Source: Henckelia pumila (taxonomy: Eukaryota; Streptophyta; Magnoliopsida; Lamiales; Gesneriaceae). From it: a stretch of DNA of 64,000 bases. Below are positions 6,038 through 52,316 of this stretch, in pieces. The translations under genes and the position numbers were made by a program. The stretch's first letter is position 1, and each line of letters opens with the position of its first letter. Location: assembly GCF_033568475.1 (NCBI RefSeq), contig NC_133120.1, forward strand, positions 80,700,151 through 80,764,150. Reading direction: 5' to 3'. Below the pieces are notes generated by a model. It saw only the letters and a list, made by a program, of their open reading frames with translations. It was not told the DNA's origin and made no database searches.

Positions 6038-9000
6038 TAGGCATGCTTAACGGGCCGGTTCGGTCCGAACCGAACCGAACCCGACCCAATAAACCCGGAA
6101 CCGGACCCGATATGGAAGAACCGGGCCCGGAACCGAGCCCAATCCATTTAATAATGGATTGAACCGGTTCAGGGTTTTCAGAACCGGTTCATCCGATTCC
6201 GGTTTCGGAACCGAATCCGGATAAATCCAGATCCTACCCGGAACCGGTAATAAAAAAATTTAAAAAAAAAGAAAATTTGGCCAACGGATACATTGTATCT
6301 GTTGGCAATTGTTCACCATGCAGTAGCCGTTCAACGGATACTGCATGGTTTAATTGCAAATTGGCCCCCAAATTAGGGGGCCAATTTTAAAAAAATAAAT
6401 TATAATTTATACCCAAAAAATTTCTATAAATACTAGATAGTTTTCATTATTTTGACACAACAATTTTCTCACAATTCTCTACTTTACTTTCTCTATAATT
6501 GTATCTCAAATATATATTTATTTAAATTCTACGTTCTCTACATTCAATGACATCATCTTCAAACCGTGGTGGTGGTCGTGGTGGTGAACGTGTCTTCGAT
6601 CTTGATCAAGATTTTCCCTACATACCCGACTTTGATGAAGCCGAACCTGGGAACGAGGAGGAAGAAGTAATGCAAATCCCCAATTTAGATGCCGGGACAC
6701 CATCTTCCGCTCGGGAAAGCAACACGATTTCAACGAGTACGACGACAAGGCGAGCAAAACGAAGTAAAGTTTGGGATCACTTTGATATCGAACAACAAGG
6801 TACGAACAACTCTTTTGCCGTATGTAAAATTTGTAAAACCAAATATTCTTACAAAACTGGTGGTGGTTCCGGTGGTACTGGTACTTTGAAAAAACATTTA
6901 GTCAAGGTACATAAACTTGACCCGGATACTCTACAACCATTCAGTAGAGAACCAACTCAACAACAAATTAATCCTTCAAGTGGTAGAGCTTTTACGATTA
7001 CTAAAGATATTTCTCGAAAAGACATTGTTAAATTTGTTACAAAATGTTGTCAACCTTTCCTACTAGCCGAACAAGAAGGTTTTGTTGAATTTACTAGTAC
7101 TATTCAACTGGGTTTTCATAATATTTCTAGGCATACACTTAAAAAATATTTTTTCGATATGTATAAGAAATATAAGGAAACACTAAAATCGTATCTTTCA
7201 AATATTTCGTGTAGAGTTAGTTTGACGACTGATATTTGGACTAATATTAAATTTGAATCTTATCTTGTTGCTACATGTCATTGGATTGATGAAACTTGGT
7301 GTATGCAAAAAAGAATTTTATCACTCGATTATTTAGAATCGTCACACAATGCATGCACTATAGCTAGATATGTTTGTAATGTTGCTAAGGCTTATGGAAT
7401 ACAAAATAAAATAATGTCTATTACATTAGATAATGCGAGTGTCAATACTCTTGCAATTAGATACATAAAGGATTCATTAAAATCGATTTTAGATGGAAAG
7501 TTGCTTCATGTTAGATGTGCTTGTCATGCTATCAACTTATGTGTTAAACGTGCATTGGATGATCGCTTGTGTACTGTAATAGAAAAATTCAAAACATGTG
7601 GAAAATTATTACGTGAAAGAAGATATGGGCGTGATTGGAAAAAACTAGTAGAATCAAATGAGATTAGATTTAAAAAAATTTCTTGCACCAGTTGACACTC
7701 GATGTAATTCTTTATATCATTTGCTTCAAACTTTATTACATTTTAAAGATTTAGTTACTTCATACTATAATAATATTGCTGCAAATGCTTTAGTCTTGAC
7801 TGACGATGATTGGAATATTTTGAGTCATGTTGTTTCTTTGTTAGAAATTTTTAAAGAAGCAACCGAAAAATTTTCTGGCATTCACTACCCCACTTCTCCC
7901 ATGTTTTTGCCTTTGATTTTCAATATGATTTTTAAATTTATGGAACATCGTGGTGATTCATTTATGCATGATTTTATTTCTAACATGGAAGATAAAATTT
8001 TGAAATATTAAGAGAATATCCCAATTTCGCATGGTTTAGCAACACTACTTGATCTTAGTCAAAGCCAAGGTGGGTTAGACATATTTTTTGAATATTACGT
8101 TAAATTTCTTGGGAAGAATGTTGACGATCAAAAGAAGTCAATAACACATTCTCTCCAAGAATTGTTTGATTTGTATGCAAGAGAACAGGGTGAACCGAAT
8201 GCACAGTCGGATGAGAGACCGATGGAGATAGACAAAACTGGAGCAATCAACTTCTTTCAAAGTTTGAAAAGACAAAAGTTGAAGGGAAAAACTACAACAA
8301 CTAATTACAATGAGATCCAAATTTATCTGAGCCAATATATTGAGACTACTGAGAGTTTTGATGTTCTAAATTGGTGGAAAGTAAATTCTCAACTTTATCC
8401 AGTGTTAGCGGCAATTGCACGAGACGTCCTAGCCGTTCAAAGTTCTAGTGTTGCTTCCAAATCGGCATTTTCAATATGTGGAAGAATCATTGGTGATCAA
8501 AGAACTAATTTAAAGCCAGAAACACTTAGTATGTTGTCATGCCTCCAAGACTGGTTTGCAGCCGAAAAAAAGAATAGGACCGCTGGAGCATTCGACGAAT
8601 TTCAAAGTTCAAGCTCCGACGAAGAGCCGGAGTATTCGAAGTATATTTTAGTTAATCGTGATGAATTTTATATTTCAATTATAAAATTAAACGTTTCAAG
8701 TTATGTAAGGACCTCGGTTATAATCATCTAATCAAAAATAAATCATTCAAACATTGATACAACCAAGAACCAAGAATGTAATCAACAAATTTTTTTTTTA
8801 TATGGGCACGGACTCCGTGCATTGGGTCCGTGCCCTTCAATTTTTTTTAAAAATCTGCTCAAACCCAAGGGCACACGGACCTAGGCACGGAGGTCAGTCC
8901 AGGGTTCGTGCGCTGCTTTACTCGAACTCCAGAACCGGTTGGAACCGGACTGGAACCGGTCCGGTTGACGTCGAACCGGACATAGGTTCGAATTGGTTAC

Positions 9001-18499: not shown

Positions 18500-18701
18500 A
18501 AACATATGGGCCAGGTCCAGATTGACAGGCTTAATTGTTTATTGAGTAAAGCCAACAGTAAAGTGACTGTTTATATAATCCAAAAAGGCCCAATACATAT
18601 TGGGCTTGGTTTGTCCTCGGTAAAACCCCTAAAACACCATAATTCTGCAACTCTTCGTAGCTGGAGCAGAAAAACGTACGACGCAGCACCGCCGTGATCC
18701 C
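18500..18701 (+). promoter_or_regulatory. RH29 core promoter with site II and telo-box-like motifs
   Basis: Three GGCCCA/TGGGC site II type motifs lie upstream of the ATG: ATGGGCC near 18508, AGGCCCAAT at 18586-18594 and ATTGGGCTT at 18599-18607. They are followed by a telo-box-like AAACCCCTA at 18622-18630. A TTTATATAATC box sits near 18570. In plants this pairing of TCP-bound site II and telo-box is typical of ribosome-biogenesis and ribosomal-protein genes, which fits the product. The motifs are seen; the regulation is inferred. Confidence 0.6.
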
Positions 18702-21700
18702 ATGGCGAAAATTCTCGCGGCCTCAAAATCAGAGTTCAAGAAGAAGCAAAAGCAGTCGAAGAAATCGAAATCTGGAGGATTTGAGTCCCTCGGATTGACC
18801 TCTAAAATCTACAATGGTGTCAAGAAGAAGGGATACAGGGTCCCGACACCTATACAGCGCAAAACCATGCCTTTGATTCTATCCGGATGCGACGTTGTTG
18901 CCATGGCCCGCACTGGTTCCGGGAAAACGGCGGCTTTCCTGATCCCTATGCTCCAAAAGCTCCAGCAGCACGTCCCACAGGCGGGAGTTCGGGCACTCAT
19001 CCTCTCCCCCACGCGTGACTTGGCTCTCCAGACTTTCAAATTTATTAAAGAGCTCGGTCGCTTTACAGGTGAATGCTTTTTCCTCAGGTGTCCATTCACA
19101 TTTGTGTAACAATGTAGTGTGTAAATGGAACGTTTTGTAAATTGCTTGAGCTGATTTTTTGTTTTTGAATCACGTAAATAGCTACGGTGATTTATTTTTC
19201 TAGTACTTGTAGTTCTTTTAGAAGTGTTGATTGAGTTTGTTGTCATGTTACTGCCGGAGCTGTAACTTTTACTTTTAAAAGTGCCTGTATCGTTGTCTTT
19301 TTTTTTTTTGCGATATCGTCATCGTCTTTTTCTAATCATAGAAGAAGTGGGTGTTTTTGTTCTTTCAAACTTTCATTTGTAGTTTTATTTCTCGTTTGAT
19401 TTAATTTGCTGGGCGCCTCATGCCTCCTGGAATAAGTATAAGAGAAAAAAGCTCCTAACTTTGTTGCCTAATACTTGGTTTTTTTTACACCGCTGAAGGT
19501 CTAACTTCGTTATTGGTCAGTGTGTGAATAAATTGAATGCAGCTTTAGAGACGATTTCACTTCAATCAAACACAAAATTTCAGTCTTTGTTATTTTTTTT
19601 AGATCTACGGGCTAGTTTACTGGTTGGTGGCGATAGTATGCAAAGCCAGTTTGAGGAATTGGCGCAAAGTCCAGATTGCATTGTTGCTACCCCTGGTAGG
19701 CTTATGCATCACTTGGAAGAGGTAGATGACATGTCATTGAGAACTGTGGAGTATGTGGTTTTTGATGAAGCTGACTGCCTCTTTAGCATGGGATTTGCTG
19801 AGCAGCTGCACAAAATCCTTGCACAGCTGGGTGAGAACCGACAGACTTTGCTTTTTAGTGCAACTTTACCGAGTGCCCTCGCTGAGTTCGCCAAGGCTGG
19901 TCTTCGAGATCCACAACTAGTGAGGCTTGATCTGGAGACAAAAATTAGCCCTGACCTGAAAATTACCTTTTTCACGTTACGCCACGAAGAAAAGTATGCT
20001 GCACTGTTGTATTTGGTTAGAGAACATATAAGTTCTGATCAGCAGTCTTTGATTTTTGTTTCCACTAAATATCACGTTGAATTCCTTTATGCTCTCCTTA
20101 GAGAAGAAGGTATTGTGGCTTCTGTTTGCTATGGGGATATGGATCAAGATGCCCGTAACATCAATGTATCAAAATTTAGAGCTAGAAAAACTATGCTGCT
20201 GATTGTCACTGATGTGGCTGCTCGGGGAATTGACATCCCTTTACTCGATAATGTAGTTAACTTTGACTTCCCTCCTAAGCCTAAACTATTTGTCCATCGT
20301 GTTGGGCGAGCTGCGAGGGCTGGTCGTACGGGTACTTCCTTTTCTTTTGTTACTTCGGAAGACATGCCTTACCTGTTAGATCTTCATCTCTTCCTTTCAA
20401 AACCACTTAGGGCCGCTCCTACTGAGGAAGAGGTCCTACAAGATATGGATGGTGTCATGGCTAAGATAGATCAAGCAGTCTCGAATGGAGAAACCGTGTA
20501 TGGCCGATTTCCCCAGAGGGTTATAGATTTGATTGCAGACAGAGTTCGAGAGATAATTGATTCATCTACAGAACTGTCTGCGATGGTTAAACCTTCTTCA
20601 AATGCATTTGTCTTGTATTCAAAGACAAAAGCAAAACCATCTAGAGAGTCTGTTAAAAGAGTCAAAACCTTGCCTCGTGAAGGTTTGCATCCGATGTTCA
20701 AAAATATTCTTGGTGGTGATGAATTGACAGCTTTAGCCTTTTCTGAACGCCTGAAAGCATTTAGGTGACTCCTGAATCAGCTTTTTATTCTTGTTCTTTA
20801 AAACTGTACAATTCTCATTACTTTTATTATTTATAAAATCAACCTTTATGCTATGTTTATTGCTAGGCCCAAGCAAACTATTATTGAAGCTGAAGGTGAG
20901 GCTGCCAAGTCAAAAAATCATCAGGTAATGTCTAGGTTCATTTTTTGCCAATTCAATAGCTATAGATGTTTTTTTTCGCTTTATGCGTTATCTCGGTACA
21001 ATTTGACGGAGAGAAATTTTTAGGGAAAGTCTAGTCAATGGGTTGATGTGATGAAGAGGAAAAGAGCCGTTCATGAGGAGGTCATAAATAAAGTCCAACA
21101 GCAGCGTTCTAAAGATAATGCGGAGAAGGTAATTCTTTTGATAAAGAATTCATTGATGGATTTGGATAGGGTTATCTGGCAATTGGATCAACTTTATGTG
21201 TGCAATTATAATTTATTATTACTGAGGCTGTTTGTTACTTAGGAATCAGAAGCTTAAACAATTTAGATAATATGATTTTATTAAAATTTGGGGTAAATAC
21301 TGGAGTAGTGGCACATTAACAAACCAATTTGGTGGTCTTGAATGCAAGAGTTCCTATCAACAATTAAACCAATATTAAATATATTCATAATTTAATGGTT
21401 GAAATCTGTGGTTGTGTAGTGATGTTTTAGGACTAACAACTCTACGTCGTTCTATTTCTCAAAGGCATTTAATAAAGACCGTTTACATTTTGTTTTTTTT
21501 TCCTTCCACCATGTATGAGATCCCCAATCGCTCTCTCTCTTGAGACACCCAAGCTGCTAGAATTGAACTGCCTGAATCCCCACATACTTTTGATAACTTT
21601 GACATGCCTTGTTCCTCACCCACCCTCCTGGACCATTTTCAAGCTTAGATGTGCTGTCATTTACATTTTATTGATGTCTGTGGTTCATTCATTCCTTGAT

Positions 21701-45113: not shown

Positions 45114-45585
45114 TTAAAATAATGAATGATGCGGCGATCAAATATTATTACTTTGTGCGTCCGATCCACGCTCGACAATGAACGTGATCGCTATATCTTA
45201 CCTATGAATATTAATTTATATTTTACTACTATTATATATTTGTAATCATATGAGTGGATAACATTAATAAATTAACTCAATTATACAAATATATATTATA
45301 AAATAGATCAAATGGATCCAATTGTCCTAAAAGCTAGGGGTACAAAATAGTGTGCTGATGGAATGAGAAATTAAAGAAAACAAAACTAAAATTAATGATG
45401 GATCTTTAACACACTGTCATAATTCAACGGTTTTAACCAGGGACGTAGCCAAAAAACTTATTGACACTGAGCTGACTTAAATATTTACACTTTGGAGGTT
45501 CAGCGTGAAGAGTGGAGTTTCATCATAAATAAGCAACGGCCTATTAGCGTAGGAGACAAATCGATTTTGAAAGTCTATGAGCATA

Positions 45586-46241
45586 CACTAGTAGAATTTC
45601 TGCATATTACTTCGCTATTTTTTACTTCGGCGATCATTATTGCCGAAGTAATACATAGTTTTTTACTGCGGTTTTAAAATCAACGAAGTAAAATGTACAT
45701 TAGACTTCATCAATTAAAAAAACGGGCTTCACTTAAATTTTTAAGTGACTTTTTACTTCACCAAATTAAATTTGATGAAGTAAAAAGATAAAAATAAAAT
45801 TTTTAATTTCTATTTGATGAAGTAATAGGTTATCCGTTTACAATTCTCTATTTTTATTTTCCACCCTGCTTCGTCTCGCCCTTAATTTCTCTCGATCTCA
45901 AGTGAAATCCATTCACTAGTAGAATTTCTGCATATTACTTCGCTATTTTTTACTTCGGCGATCATTATTGCCGAAGTAATACATAGTTTTTTACTGCGGT
46001 TTTAAAATCAACGAAGTAAAATGTACATTAGACTTCATCAATTAAAAAAACGGGCTTCACTTAAATTTTTAAGTGACTTTTTACTTCACCAAATTAAATT
46101 TGATGAAGTAAAAAGATAAAAATAAAATTTTTAATTTCTATTTGATGAAGTAATAGGTTATCCGTTTACAATTCTCTATTTTTATTTTCCACCCTACTTC
46201 GTCTCGCCCTTAATTTCTCTCGATCTCAAGTGAAATCCATT
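45586..46241 (+). repeat. tandem duplication (2 x 328 bp) of the CACTA 5' terminus
   Basis: 45586-45913 and 45914-46241 are almost identical (one clear difference, CCCTGCTTCG versus CCCTACTTCG). The second copy starts exactly at a new CACTAGTAGAATTTC terminus. The element therefore has two successive 5' ends. Confidence 0.92.
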
Positions 46242-47303
46242 TAGGGCTTCCCCATTCTCTCCCCAACAGATCGATGTCCGCCTGCTTCCATCACTTCCGC
46301 CTGCTCTAGGGATTTCCCATTATCACCATTAATCTATGTAAGAATCTCTATTTTTCCATTCTTTCCATTACCGATTTGGAGATGACCAAGTTCAACGAAG
46401 TGCAAACGCGTCGCCGCTCTGCCGTCGACCTGTGGAAGAGAAAGCCTCAACTTTTTCCCCTGTTTTTTTGTTGTTTTCCCTCTTATCCAATTTAAATATA
46501 TGTTCTTTGATGCAGTTGTGGCAATCCCATTTTGTACCAAATCAGTTGTAATCGATGTAAAATCACAGATCGATGCCCTAATCGATAAACTCATCGACGC
46601 ATACATCATCTTCTATCTCCCTGTAATCGATTCTAAGCTTCCCTCCTTTTCTTGAATTGATTATGGCACTTTCGATTTTATGTTTCCCCCTTCGTTGTAA
46701 TCGACTCTAAGCATCGCCTTTTCTTAAATCGATTTTGAGTTTCTGCTGGTATTTACGTTAATCGGGTCGAGCTTCGCCATTTGGAAATCGCATCGAAGAA
46801 TTTTTAGTTGAGGTTTATCGGGTCGAGCTTGTCTTCTCTTCTTTCTCCCAAGCATCTGCCATAGAATCTCAAGGTGAAAAGGTATTGTCGCATTCTAGCT
46901 CTGTTTTAAAATAAACTTAAATCTCTAGTTTTTTTTAATTCAAGGCTTCTTTTCCTGTTCCTTTATATCCTTCCTCGGGGAATTCCTTCGTACGCTATGG
47001 ATTTCCAGTAATCCTTGTCTGCTTCAAGTATCTGATGACAATGTATAGCAAACAGGTCTTGATTGTGACAAAATTCCTAAAACTTCTAACATAATAGTCT
47101 TGAAAATTCGAGTAGGCTTAAATCTAATACACTAGATTTCCCGTAACATGCATTCAAAAAATTCCCTCACAATAACATTATTTTTGAAATATCATAACCT
47201 TCTTGAACTGTGAGAAATAAAGAAATACACTGCGCTCATGATTTTTTTTTTTTTTGGTCTCCTTTCTATGAACTTGTTGGTGGATGATTCAATCTTACTG
47301 CAG

Positions 47304-48163
47304 TTTACTTGGGTAAGTCATGCATGTTAATTCTGTAAACTCTATTATTTGCCGCCATTCAAGAGATATTGTTGCTCAAACTGATAACTGTGTCTCATAT
47401 AAATCTTCCATTTTCTTTAAGTTTTTGTTTGATCTGAACTTCGTATAATTTTCTGTGTATATATGTAGGAGGTTATGATAAGGAAGAAAAGGTTGCTCGA
47501 GCTTATGATTTAGCAGCTTTGAAATACTGGGGAACAACTACCACTACAAATTTTCCTGTCAGTGCTTTGAGTACCCATTAAATATTTCATGTGTTTGGAC
47601 TAAATATGTTCCAATATTCAAATATTTGTAATTTTAAAAACTTGTAATTTCTGATTACCTCCAAAACATTGATTCAGATTAGAAACTATGAGAAATAAGT
47701 GGAGGAAATGAAGCACATGACTAGGCAGGAATACGTAGCATCATTAAGAAGGTAATCTGAAGCTTTGATAACATAAATAATAAGAATCAATGTGAAAATC
47801 ATAATGGTACAGTACTTGTCTATATCTATTTGAGCTGATCATTTGACAATTGCAATATTTTTAATCCAGCAAAAGTAGCGGTTTCTCTCGCGGCGCGTCC
47901 ATTTATCGGGGAGTTACAAGGTACATCAACCTATTTGTATTAATATATCTCATGTATGCCTGTTATATGGGGAATGAGCAACATGGATCGTGAATTAATA
48001 TATAGTTTCCAGCATATTGATATACATGTATCTGTCATTACATTTTTCACAAATTAAATTACATTAAGATTGTGTACTTTAACAGACATCATCAGCATGG
48101 AAGATGGCAAGCAAGGATAGGAAGAGTTGCTGGGAATAAGGACCTTTAATTGGGAACTTTCAG
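47304..48163 (+). pseudogene. captured fragment of an AINTEGUMENTA-like (AP2) gene
   Basis: Five consecutive exons with introns kept. The 9-nt mini-exon TTTACTTGG (47304-47312) sits between CAG and GTAAGT. Then 47469-47557 ([20 protein letters not shown]), 47678-47751 (EEMKHMTRQEYVASLRR), 47870-47920 (KSSGFSRGASIYRGVT) and 48086-48163 ([20 protein letters not shown]). This covers the end of AP2 repeat 1, the linker and the start of repeat 2. The mini-exon encoding the YL of VYLG is diagnostic of ANT/AIL/WRI1-type genes. Two in-frame TAA codons lie at 47696-47698 (normally Glu after NYEK) and in KDL-stop-LGTF at about 48150. The last donor has lost one G. Confidence 0.9.
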
Positions 48164-48938
48164 TAAGCTTCTTGCATGAAGTTATTGGGCTATATTTTGT
48201 TTATTTTCTGGAAGATGTGCAGATTCACATTATCAATTGAATATTTTTTTCCTATTCCTCTTGCAACAATAATATTTGTTTACTATAGCTAAATTTTTTT
48301 TATTGAGTGAAACTATTCAATTGAATTACTACAATTGATTAAAAAATGTATTTTTTTTTATTTAAATTGCCACTAGTAGCAGCATTATTAAATGAAAGCA
48401 GCAAACATGGTTTTACAGGGTGAAGTGATTTGAAGATGAAATAGCTTGAGTTTTGAGCTTCTTACTCAACATTGGCCTATAGGTTTTCTTTTTAGTTTTT
48501 AGTCTTGCATTCCAACATTTCCTAATCTTCTAAAATTTAAACGTACATGTATAGAGTCAATAGAAAAGTTATTGCGCTAGGAAATGGTTTGGTGTCTTTG
48601 ATTCACTGTTAACATGAGTCCTTTAATAGGTTACATCCATCATGATTATCTCGCTAAACTATATTGTGAATGTGTCATTGTTCAGACTTTTCAGAACTGG
48701 AACGTTGTGTTTGTCCATTCCATTTCTGACCACACTCTTAATTTCTTTGTTTCCTTGTCGCACTATCTTGACTGGACTTTACTCAGTTCTCTGTATGTTA
48801 TGTGGTTATGATAAAGTTTACAAGCCTTTTAACTGAATGGTCATGCATTTCAGTTGAGGAATCTTTTGTGCGCAACCTCAAAACATGATGTGTATCTTAT
48901 CAAAACTATTCTGTGATGCGCTGGTCTTCTTTTCTTAG

Positions 48939-49198
48939 GATAGGTAAAGAGGTCCTAATTGCCGCTAAACCTATCGTGATATCCTTGGTGAGTTCCCTTG
49001 TTCAAGCTATTTTGTAGTATATGACAGGAATTTAATGAGTGTTGAATGTATTAGCCTGTATTAGGAGTGTTGAATGTATTAGCCTGTCTGCAGAAACATC
49101 TTGATGATCAACCTGTGACAAGGGTTCAGATAAGCACCATGACTGTTAAGGACAATCTAATGGTGATTGGTGGTTTTCAAGGAGATCTCATCTACAAG
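48939..49198 (+). pseudogene. captured fragment of a WD-repeat protein gene
   Basis: Two exons with GT-AG borders: 48939-48987 (GKEVLIAAKPIVISL) and 49094-49198 (RVQISTMTVKDNLMVIGGFQ then GDLIYK). The ISTMTVKDNLMVxGGFQGEL phrase is characteristic, as I recall it, of a conserved plant WD40-type protein annotated as an uncharacterised WD repeat-containing protein. Both exons are open. The frame enters in phase 1 and leaves in phase 0. Confidence 0.75.
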
Positions 49199-49288
49199 GT
49201 ACACTACAAGAAATATGGTAATAGACTACACTAGTCTTGGCTGTTTGAGGTGTTCATCCTTTAACATTGATTTTTACTTTTTTACTAG

Positions 49289-49765
49289 AACCAAAATGCA
49301 GATGAAGCTATCCTCAAACATCTGGACTTACTAAGGTCAGTTCTTATTTGATTTTTTTAAATCTTCTATTCATACTTTCTTTGTACTTTTGGTATATCAT
49401 AGACGTACATAATTTCTATGAACACATGTTTTTGGGGTTCCTTGTATTGTATTGTATCGTATCATTCTTTCATATATGAATGATCTGTAGAATATCGAAA
49501 TTTATTTCCTTAACCGCATTGTTTTCCTGACTATATACATGTAAATTTTCAGTGTTTCCAAGTTTCCCAATTTACAAAAATGGACTAAACGAGCTGAGAA
49601 TTTTGACAATTACCTAAAAAACTCTGTTAGTAACAAACATTTGATACCTGCTTTTGACTGATTTATTTTTGTACATTGGCTGATGAATGTCTGATTCTGC
49701 AGGTTCAAATTGCAATGGTGGGGAAGTATGTTGGGATGGCAGATTCATATCTATCTGTTGTTAAG
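49289..49765 (+). pseudogene. captured fragment of a CTP synthase gene
   Basis: Three exons: 49289-49335 (NQNADEAILKHLDLL), 49553-49625 (FPNLQKWTKRAENFDNYLKN) and 49703-49765 (VQIAMVGKYVGMADSYLSVV). They correspond to the end of the synthase domain, the linker and the start of the glutaminase half of CTP synthase, where relatives read W-x-x-RAE and VRIAMVGKYxGLxDSYLSV. All borders are GT-AG and the phase is continuous. No stop is present in these exons. Confidence 0.9.
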
Positions 49766-50157
49766 GTGTGATAATATATATTTTTGTAGTATCTATATTC
49801 AGCTGATGTCTAATATGTCGACACGCCAGTGGATCACATGACAATTTGGAGGAATTTTATTTTTGCTTATATTTTATGCAATGGTAAAAGATATGTATCG
49901 CTTCAAAAAAAAATATGTATCAACTTTATGTTTTCAAGTGTTTAGCTTTGTTTTAGATCCAACAGTTTTTAGTATACTCCATGAATAATGAATAATCGGA
50001 TGGTTTCTTAGATGAGAACCAAATCTCTAGCACATCATACTGAGATTTAAATATTCCAAGATCGGTGATATGCGCCTTTATAGCTGTTAACAATTAACTT
50101 TAATTGTAATTCCTTTGGTATTTAATGACTTGATCTAATAATTTCATTCATGATCAG

Positions 50158-50240
50158 ATTTTGGAAGCTCTCACCATAGCAGGATGTAAAGAACGTTTCT
50201 CCTTGGAAAGGTTGGAAACACTCGGAGATGCAGTTTTAAA
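50158..50240 (+). pseudogene. captured exon of a Dicer-like RNase III gene
   Basis: One exon reading [20 protein letters not shown] then TLGDAVLK, followed by a GTATGC donor. This is the RNase III signature region (LExLExLGDxxLKYA), with the Glu and Asp of the catalytic motif intact in the fragment. The flavour is Dicer-like (DCL) rather than bacterial-type RNase III. The member (DCL2, 3 or 4) cannot be decided from 27 residues. The exon starts in phase 0 and ends in phase 2. Confidence 0.8.
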
Positions 50241-51588
50241 GTATGCCATTTTTTATTTTTGGGTGTGATTTGAAAATACTGTCTAATGTGATTTAAGCTA
50301 TCTTTAATTTAGTGTCTATTTTTCATCCTAGTGTTAGTTGAGTGATTAGATCTTTGCAGGTTATTAAGGAGTTAGGTGTGATCAAATGAAAAAATGAAAA
50401 ATTTTTGTTATGATTTAAAAAAATGCAAGATTCATCGCTAAGATTCTGTTGAAGCTTGTAGTTTGATTTGAATTGTATTTTTTGTGTGTTTTTTTAATAT
50501 GTCGTATGATTTCATCACATGTAATTGGATGAAAGTGCACTTGTATGAAAACTAGTTTGTGTTTTATGGGATTAAATGTCTTATGAATCTTGTCAGTACC
50601 TATCATAGTGATTAGATCAAGTGAAAGAATGAAATCAAGAAAAAATAATTTTTGATTAAAGTCTGTCATTGTTATTAATTATTTTTTCAGGAACTGAATA
50701 TGGGCTTTGCATTATGGATTGCTTTTGGAGGTGATGGCTGGCTTTACGAGTGGGTGGGCGAAGTGCAGGGCCGACCTGAATGTGTTTGAGTTTTGCGTGT
50801 TAAGTTTAGAATATGATTTGCATCCATTTACTTGTACAATTCTATTATTTGTTCACGCCTCTAGTCCCTAGTTTCTGAAAAAAAAAATTTGTATTTTTTG
50901 TAGTGTGCATTGCATTAGAATTTAATTTCGAGTGATTTGTAATACTAAAAAATTGTATATTAAATTTTATTTTTGAAATTTTAAATTTTGGTTTATTTAT
51001 AATATTGAAAATTTTATATTATTTTTAAATTTTTTTTTTGTTTTTTAGAATGTCTTTTACTTCGTCAATTAGTAAAATTGCCGAAGTATAAGCATATCTT
51101 TTGCTTCGAAAATTTCATTAAAAATCGAAGTAAAAGAATACATTTTACTTCGGCAATTTCTTTAATAGACGAAGTATAAGCATATGTTTTACTTCGTAAC
51201 TTATGAAATGAGCGAAGTAAAATATATGTTTTTACTTCGGCACCTGTCCAATTCTGCTTTCAAAAAATGACCAAAAACTTCGGTAATTTAAGGTATAAGA
51301 CTTCGGCGATTCAGCGAAGTAAAAAGGTATCCTATTACTTCACGTGACACTACTTCGGTAATTAAGTGCCTACGACTTCGGTTATTAACCGAAGTCTTAA
51401 GCGATTTTTCTACTAGTGATAATATGTTTTACTAGTGGGCTAAACAAATTAAAAGAATAAAGGAAAATTTTTTATGTAAGGCTAAGCCCAATAATAAAAA
51501 CAAAATCTCATATACTATTAACTAAAAAAAAATAGACTGGGCTGGAGCCCACCCCAACCTTTGGGGTGGCTCTGTCCCTAGTTTTGAC

Positions 51589-52316
51589 GTGTGTCATATA
51601 ATAGAATATATAGATTGGGCATGAGAAGATGTCACGAAGGATTGGTGGCATCAAAAATGTTCTTTAGCTCTCTGGTATTTTCCTGAGGCAAGGAAATGTT
51701 CCAGAGAAATTGAGAAAAGATATGAAGGTTCTAGATTCGTGCGGAAGAACCTTGAATATTGTGGATAATGCGTGAAGATTTTAGGTACATGTGGAAGGGC
51801 CTAGAATATTGAAGATATAACGTGAGAAGATCTAGAATATTGATGTGAAAAAAGTTGGGTCTAGAAGCTTTCAGGGTGATCAAAAAATATATAGAGACTT
51901 GTAATTGTAGGAAGGTTTGGATTATTCTATAATACGCTTGTAAATATGTAATATTTAGAATGCTCTATGGATCCAAAAACATGTAAAGACTTGTAAGAAG
52001 GTTTGGATTATTCTAAAATAGTACTCTTGTAAATATGTAATATTTAATTAGAATGCTCTATGGTATAGAGTAGAGTGAAATACACTAAATGATCGAGAAC
52101 TTGTATATATAGAGGTGTAAGATCTCATTTGTAAATCAACCAATTAAAGAATCAAATTAAGTGTACATATTCTCCAAGTTAGTTTTACTAGTTCATACAC
52201 TTAACTACCAAGATCATCTTCTAAGACTACTTTGTTAGTACTCGCAAGAATGGAGTTGTGGGACAAAGACCACATGTGAGCTTAGAAAGACTAAGTTCGT
52301 GACAAGACGGTGATAA
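51589..52316. other. unclassified insert within the array
   Basis: The first 70 bp resemble array flank sequence (TAATAGAATATATAG; GGATTGGTGGCATC). From about 51658 to 52310 the sequence is unrelated. It has internal near-repeats (GGTTTGGATTATTCTA, CTTGTAAATATGTAATATTTA) and a TATATATAGAGGTGTAAGA box. It begins TGTTCTTTAG, which could be an LTR start, but no matching end or target duplication was found. Confidence 0.35.

Follow-up and report, generated by a model that had tools for sequence, protein, structure and literature searches.

A transposase-less CACTA element of Henckelia pumila enclosing pieces of five separate loci, and its probable stepwise assembly

Introduction

Uptake of gene DNA by CACTA transposons has been argued mainly from models, namely the fusion of neighbouring elements or the use of filler DNA in break repair. 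The 64-kb stretch of Henckelia pumila DNA analysed here, termed the window, holds a CACTA element enclosing pieces of unrelated host genes, and the question raised by this locus is how such a cargo was brought together. The assembled element, relatives that resemble each of its halves, a relative without the AP2 piece and the matching genes all seem to be present in one genome, so that both routes of capture become readable base by base in a single element.

Structure of the element

The element and its ends are laid out as follows (TIR, terminal inverted repeat; TSD, target site duplication; places elsewhere in the genome are given as contig and position).

45586..51418: complete, non-autonomous CACTA element with both TIRs and ATA/ATA TSD
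45583..45585: left TSD, ATA
45586..45596, + strand: left TIR, CACTAGTAGAA
45586..45913, + strand: additional left-end copy that none of the other three full copies has
45914..46241, + strand: left end with subterminal repeats, grouping with the element at C3:32.4M
46242..47246, + strand: inner DNA common to C3:32.4M and C1:7.18M
50552..51418, + strand: the family's right end, bearing subterminal repeats and grouping with Dicer-only elements
51408..51418, - strand: right TIR
51419..51421: right TSD, ATA

The left terminus, CACTAGTAGAA from 45586, is matched in 11 of 11 bp by the inverse running up to 51418 and ATA stands on both sides, which bears out the perfect CACTA termini and ATA duplication reported by an earlier sequence-only reading of this DNA. 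The subterminal ACTTCG arrays of that reading were likewise recovered: the motif or its complement CGAAGT occurs 26 times inside the element, 23 of them in the terminal parts (45586-46241 and 51053-51418), and 20 times in the remainder of the 64-kb window, the subterminal short repeats being present in both orientations. Genome-wide, the left-end pattern with at most two mismatches is found at 134 places and the reversed pattern at 0. A transposase-sized frame is absent from the six frames of 46242-51050, where the longest stop-free stretch is 92 aa, in agreement with the earlier statement that no transposase is carried. The element is a transposase-less Pack-CACTA, a known kind. The window copy carries its leftmost 328 bp in duplicate, with 1 mismatch in 328 between 45586-45913 and 45914-46241, a feature that had escaped the sequence-only reading.

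Captured gene pieces and matching genes

All five of the cargo pieces lie on the + strand, as had been claimed, and each was matched to a locus of the same genome.

47247..48230, + strand: exons and introns of an AINTEGUMENTA-like AP2 gene; gene L021, C77:6.22M
48376..49201, + strand: intron and exons of a WD-repeat gene; gene L082, C2:122.2M; 70 substitutions in 771
49231..50027, + strand: exons and introns of CTP synthase (CTPS); gene L024, C3:60.6M; 74 in 747
50028..50246, + strand: intron and exon of a Dicer-like RNase III gene; gene L077, C1:110.0M; 20 in 218
50249..50559, + strand: non-coding UDP-glucose dehydrogenase (UGD) piece; L078, C3:148.1M; 39 in 307

The four donors named earlier (AP2, WD, CTPS and Dicer) therefore stand and their number does not, the UGD piece having been missed; its match lies about 0.6 kb upstream of the UGD start codon. 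The CTPS gene was found in a search in which 40 of 1069 candidates were scored. Intron DNA matches the gene found for AP2, WD, CTPS and Dicer, and the matched loci are five separate ones (C77, C2, C3, C1 and C3), so that neither a ready-made neighbourhood of parental genes nor a lack of parental introns, the two findings that would have spoken against capture, was encountered. Pfam comparison of the short window fragments left AP2 under the cut-off and returned nothing meaningful for WD, CTPS and Dicer.

The AP2 piece is the closest to its gene, with 6 differences in 301 exon positions and 13 in 663 intron positions (about 1.7-2.0% overall). As exons and introns have diverged equally and the piece carries stops, there is no sign of protein-level constraint on it, and this possibility was rejected. 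Because the CTPS, WD, Dicer and UGD pieces diverge from their matches by 9-13%, the genes found for them may be paralogous to the actual donors, or capture may have happened long ago. A further match of the fifth piece lies at C3:81.03M (88% over 144 columns), and since no dehydrogenase is near it, the piece may be a repeat that has spread on its own.

Full copies of the chimera

Other copies with the same cargo, which had been proposed as a check on the sequence-only reading, do exist. Three full copies besides that of the window are 98.8-99.4% identical to it, carry the TSDs TTA, GTA and GCC, and differ from it by 0.3-2.0% substitutions per segment. The genome thus holds at least four full copies (40 of 1069 candidates scored), and the WD search, with 14 of 14 candidates scored, also gives four. 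Each has its own 3-bp duplication and therefore the chimera moved as a unit. A degenerate host gene or pseudogene cluster that happens to be flanked by CACTA-like sequences is practically excluded, as is an artefact of assembly, in spite of the gene model annotated there, by four near-identical, TSD-flanked copies at separate places on three contigs.

Relatives with partial cargo and the joints

An own TSD was found in all nine elements of which both ends were compared, and the related elements are flanked as follows.

C3:32.4M: TSD TAT
C4:121.9M: TSD CTA
C2:165.7M: TSD TAC, left terminus mutated
C3:2.59M: TSD CAT
C3:18.7M: TSD CCT

Pfam on the 170-aa frame of the C3:2.59M element and on other small pieces gave no informative match. 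The element at C3:32.4M shares with the window its left end (1.2% substitutions) and its WD/CTPS cargo (2.5-3.6%), has other DNA at the place of AP2 and shows no match to Dicer. Conversely, the elements at C4:121.9M (1.2-1.4% substitutions) and C1:41.1M match the window, within the cargo, only from 50028 to the right end. Position 50028 appears to be the join point between two cargo-bearing elements, with WD/CTPS on one side and Dicer/UGD on the other. The AP2 piece is a patch of about 0.98 kb replacing about 0.24 kb inside the WD/CTPS cargo; its joints show overlaps, a poly-T run and a shared TATC.

The trees of the two ends point the same way. The right-end tree (20 rows, leaving out the right end of C3:32.4M) unites the four full copies with two Dicer-only elements (100/100), while in the left-end tree (31 rows) C3:32.4M and L067 join the four full copies (100/99) and the left end of the Dicer-only type belongs to a distant group. 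These conflicting histories agree with the joining of two elements. At C2:165.7M the WD/CTPS cargo lies behind a quite different left end, and therefore more exchanges must have taken place than the scheme proposed below shows.

The locus C1:7.18M looked contiguous and was considered as the WD donor gene, yet it already holds the WD/CTPS joint and was rejected as such. What lies there is another element of this cargo type that lacks its left end; beyond the WD/CTPS joint it is interrupted by a block occurring twice at a spacing of about 3.46 kb, a probable LTR retrotransposon.

Proposed assembly history

We consider it highly probable that this Pack-CACTA was built stepwise, by way of separate cargo elements, an AP2 patch, the join at 50028, transposition as a unit and doubling of the left end. 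The scheme starts from what was directly observed, namely structure, copies, TSDs, matching gene loci, joints and the conflicting histories of the ends. Different elements with related ends would have acquired WD and CTPS DNA on the one hand and Dicer and UGD-upstream DNA on the other. About 0.98 kb of the AP2 gene would have been copied as filler into the WD/CTPS lineage, displacing about 0.24 kb, and this lineage would have been joined at 50028 to a Dicer element, one contributing the left end and the other the right. The patching may have preceded or followed the join; among the elements compared, none was seen with the AP2 patch alone or the 50028 join alone. Fusion of neighbouring elements and template switching in break repair are both conceivable routes for the join. 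The finished chimera would then have spread in one piece to four or more sites, presumably mobilised in trans by a transposase from elsewhere, the candidate partner being a CACTA transposase between CACTAGTAG ends, and the window copy would finally have gained its second left end.

Succession within a single element, the other elements being its deletion derivatives, would account for one strand and one pair of ends enclosing all pieces. It is nevertheless improbable, because deletion cannot add extra DNA: the AP2-less elements have different, mutually homologous DNA at that place, and their CTPS DNA continues past the point where that of the window copy breaks off, still matching the CTPS gene; the Dicer-only element extends over more of the Dicer gene than the window copy does and has another left end. 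The view of a Pack-type CACTA carrying exons and introns from unrelated genes is retained, and simple sequential capture gives way to the 50028 join and the AP2 patch. Somewhat less probable still is that the chimera arose through another type of element, such as a Helitron, and came to lie between CACTA ends only afterwards. Helitrons typically carry multi-gene cargo, which would suit this locus, but CACTA ends and 3-bp TSDs are present in the related elements with cargo that were compared, and the joints resemble repair patches.

Annotated chimeric gene

Under stepwise assembly, splice sites in the cargo could allow transcripts that join exons of different donors. A public Henckelia pumila protein of 102 residues, P0241, equals the spliced WD, CTPS and Dicer exons of the window letter for letter.

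48916..48987, + strand: exon 1 (WD)
49094..49198, + strand: exon 2 (WD)
49289..49335, + strand: exon 3 (CTP synthase)
49703..49765, + strand: exon 4 (CTP synthase, read in a frame other than the gene's)
50158..50179, + strand: first part of exon 5, ending at the stop codon (Dicer, likewise not in the gene's own frame)

This gene model suggests that the window copy may be transcribed as a chimera, and makes transcription of such a shuffle testable. A broader idea is that the family acts as a modular gene assembler, whose elements keep trading cargo blocks and ends through repair-linked fusion, and that the window copy has turned into a transcribed, spliced chimeric gene combining exons from three unrelated genes; it is put forward tentatively and is more likely wrong than right.

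Comparison with known systems

Among the literature matches listed for CACTA in this species, no paper names Henckelia pumila. Tgm-Express1 of soybean is a CACTA element of 5.7 kb in which exon and intron segments from five unrelated genes are found, and its exons are spliced into chimeric transcripts as demonstrated by RT-PCR (PMC1947982). The unusual richness ascribed to the window element by the sequence-only reading was thus too strong a claim. Both have five unrelated pieces, and a database gene model is compatible with a similar joining of exons in the window element; in addition, the Henckelia genome shows relatives with partial cargo and both parts of the join. Chimeric transcripts are also reported for the non-autonomous CACTA elements of the Tpn1 family of Ipomoea nil (morning glory), which share with the window element conserved ends, subterminal repeats, an interior replaced by host genic DNA and 3-bp TSDs, the window element being of another species and another family (PMC5105172). 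For Pack-CACTA and Pack-TYPE capture, fusion of neighbouring related elements has been proposed; the window element is alike in having no transposase, TIRs with a TSD and coding DNA from several loci, and differs in that two elements of different cargo, resembling both halves, survive (PMC8903248). A Chenopodium CACTA-like element also has an AP2 fragment, which measures 80 bp and lies upstream of a transposase-type domain, unlike in the window element (PMC8978399). Overall, Tgm-Express1 and Tpn1 are close precedents, and the new point is the well-resolved assembly.

Element structure and mobility

The element at 45586-51418, located in the 884.7-Mb Henckelia pumila genome (window at C1:80700151-80764150), is bounded by perfect inverted ends of 11 bp, CACTAGTAGAA, with ATA flanking it on the left and the right, and 23 of its 26 ACTTCG/CGAAGT repeats lie within its terminal parts; the longest stop-free stretch inside it is 92 aa. 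With 46230-51050 as query, 40 of 1069 genome candidates were scored, giving at least three further full copies, C3:188.55M, C2:158.04M and C2:178.62M (contig and Mb position), flanked by 3-bp duplications of TTA, GTA and GCC, and a search with the WD-repeat fragment (14 of 14 scored) returned the same four. Pairwise identity among the four is 98.8-99.4% over aligned bases, 3-bp duplications also occur in five other family members (those with both ends compared), and the left-end pattern, at up to two mismatches, is found at 134 genome places versus none for its reverse. The element is a mobile element.

The left end of the window copy is doubled: 45586-45913 duplicates 45914-46241 head to tail (328 bp, one mismatch). 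The ATA duplication lies beyond the outer of the two, and the other three full copies have a single left end. The repeat starts exactly at the first base of the element and finishes near the border with the inner DNA, 46238-46241, where the homology of C1:7.18M likewise starts.

A second CACTA-like terminus, CACTACAAGAAAAT, occurs at 399 places in the whole genome versus 9 for the reversed pattern. By eye, 45430-45585 and 51422-51590 resemble imperfect inverted ends (AGGGACGTAGCCA left, TGGCTCTGTCCCT right), and the element seems nested within a smaller repeat. Among other family members, C3:2593181-2597490 (L058, L074, L031; 4.3 kb, target site duplication CAT) contains a 170-aa open stretch that matches nothing in Pfam and may be a different captured gene, and L060 (C3:18.7M) is short (~0.77 kb, duplication CCT). 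Elsewhere in the window, three consecutive + strand open frames at 6526-8731 resemble, by eye, a broken hAT-type transposase, and a DEAD-box RNA helicase 29-like gene lies at 18633-20768.

Captured gene pieces

The cargo pieces, all on the + strand, match five unlinked gene loci.

47247-48230, +: AP2 piece; AINTEGUMENTA-like gene at C77:6.22M
48376-49201, +: WD-repeat piece; gene at C2:122.2M, 70/771 substitutions
49231-50026, +: CTP synthase piece; gene at C3:60.6M, 74/747 substitutions
50028-50246, +: Dicer-like piece; gene at C1:110.0M, 20/218 substitutions
50249-50559, +: fifth piece; DNA upstream of a UDP-glucose dehydrogenase ORF at C3:148.1M, 39/307 substitutions

Protein matches of the first piece are AP2 proteins, many with ANT/AIL/PLT-type names. 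Compared with its gene, the piece has 6 differences in 301 exon bases and 13 in 663 intron bases. Its exons contain stop codons common to all four copies; over 968 columns, 15 differ from the gene identically in all four and 11 vary among them. The next three genes have Pfam matches above cut-off (WD40; CTP_synth_N and GATase; two Ribonuclease_3), and the Dicer-like piece has two additional matching places 70-80 kb from its gene. Part of 50249-50559 has an 88% match at C3:81.03M too, and no dehydrogenase was observed there; this counts against the dehydrogenase assignment.

Probable assembly from two elements

Four elements (C2:165.7M, C2:32.4M, C4:200.4M and C72:2.5M) carry the WD-repeat and CTP synthase cargo with a right end that lacks Dicer, and their CTP synthase DNA extends beyond the window's break point, matching the gene there. 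The match of the C4:121.9M (duplication CTA) and C1:41.1M elements to the window is limited to 50028 through the right end; the former has more Dicer DNA than the window element and a left end only 72% like that of the window element. In the right-end tree (20 rows, leaving out the right end of the C3:32.4M element) the four full copies group with these two Dicer-only elements (support 100/100). The left-end tree, of 31 rows, puts them instead with C3:32.4M and locus L067 (100/99), and the Dicer-only left end falls in a distant position. This conflict indicates that the two ends differ in history, and, together with the element matches, argues that the window element is two cargo-bearing elements joined at 50028. 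In the C2:165.7M element the WD-repeat/CTP synthase cargo follows a further left end, which means that elements have exchanged parts more widely than a two-element scheme describes.

The element at C3:32399234 (duplication TAT) combines a window-type left end, the 46242-47246 DNA and WD-repeat/CTP synthase cargo. The position that the 984-bp AP2 stretch occupies in the window element holds ~0.25 kb of different DNA here, which is homologous, at ~90%, to the corresponding position in another element of this type, C1:7.18M. At the AP2 joints, a T run and a TATC common to both sources mark where the window switches from one to the other, an appearance suggesting that AP2 DNA was copied in as filler during break repair. 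The related C1:7180400-7192700 element (L070, L019, L023, L071) lacks the family's left end and is interrupted by a repeated block, probably an LTR retrotransposon, with copies ~3.46 kb apart.

Dates are relative, from substitutions only, with no clock applied. Cargo-to-gene values are 12.7% (UDP-glucose dehydrogenase), 9.9% (CTP synthase), 9.2% (Dicer), 9.1% (WD-repeat) and 1.7-2.0% (AP2), which makes AP2 the youngest capture; at 9-13% the matched genes may be paralogues and not donors. The window differs by 2.5-3.6% from the WD-repeat/CTP synthase elements in cargo and by 1.2-1.4% from the Dicer element, and full copies differ among themselves by 0.3-2.0% per segment; both the join and the spread are young.

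Chimeric gene model

P0241, a 102-aa 'uncharacterized protein', 'isoform X1', of Henckelia pumila, is given letter for letter by splicing five window exons.

48916-48987: WD-repeat
49094-49198: WD-repeat
49289-49335: CTP synthase
49703-49765: CTP synthase
50158-50179, including stop: Dicer

All introns of the model are GT-AG, and two exons are out of frame relative to their source gene. The compared codons are not the same in the three remaining full copies, which identifies the window copy as the one annotated.

Comparison with known elements

Among the papers listed by a CACTA literature search, none named Henckelia pumila, and no first report is claimed. Tgm-Express1 (PMC1947982), Tpn1 (PMC5105172) and the Pack-CACTAs (PMC8903248) are of the same kind as the window element, and fusion of neighbouring elements was already proposed in section 9 of the last; the value of the window element lies in its readable history.
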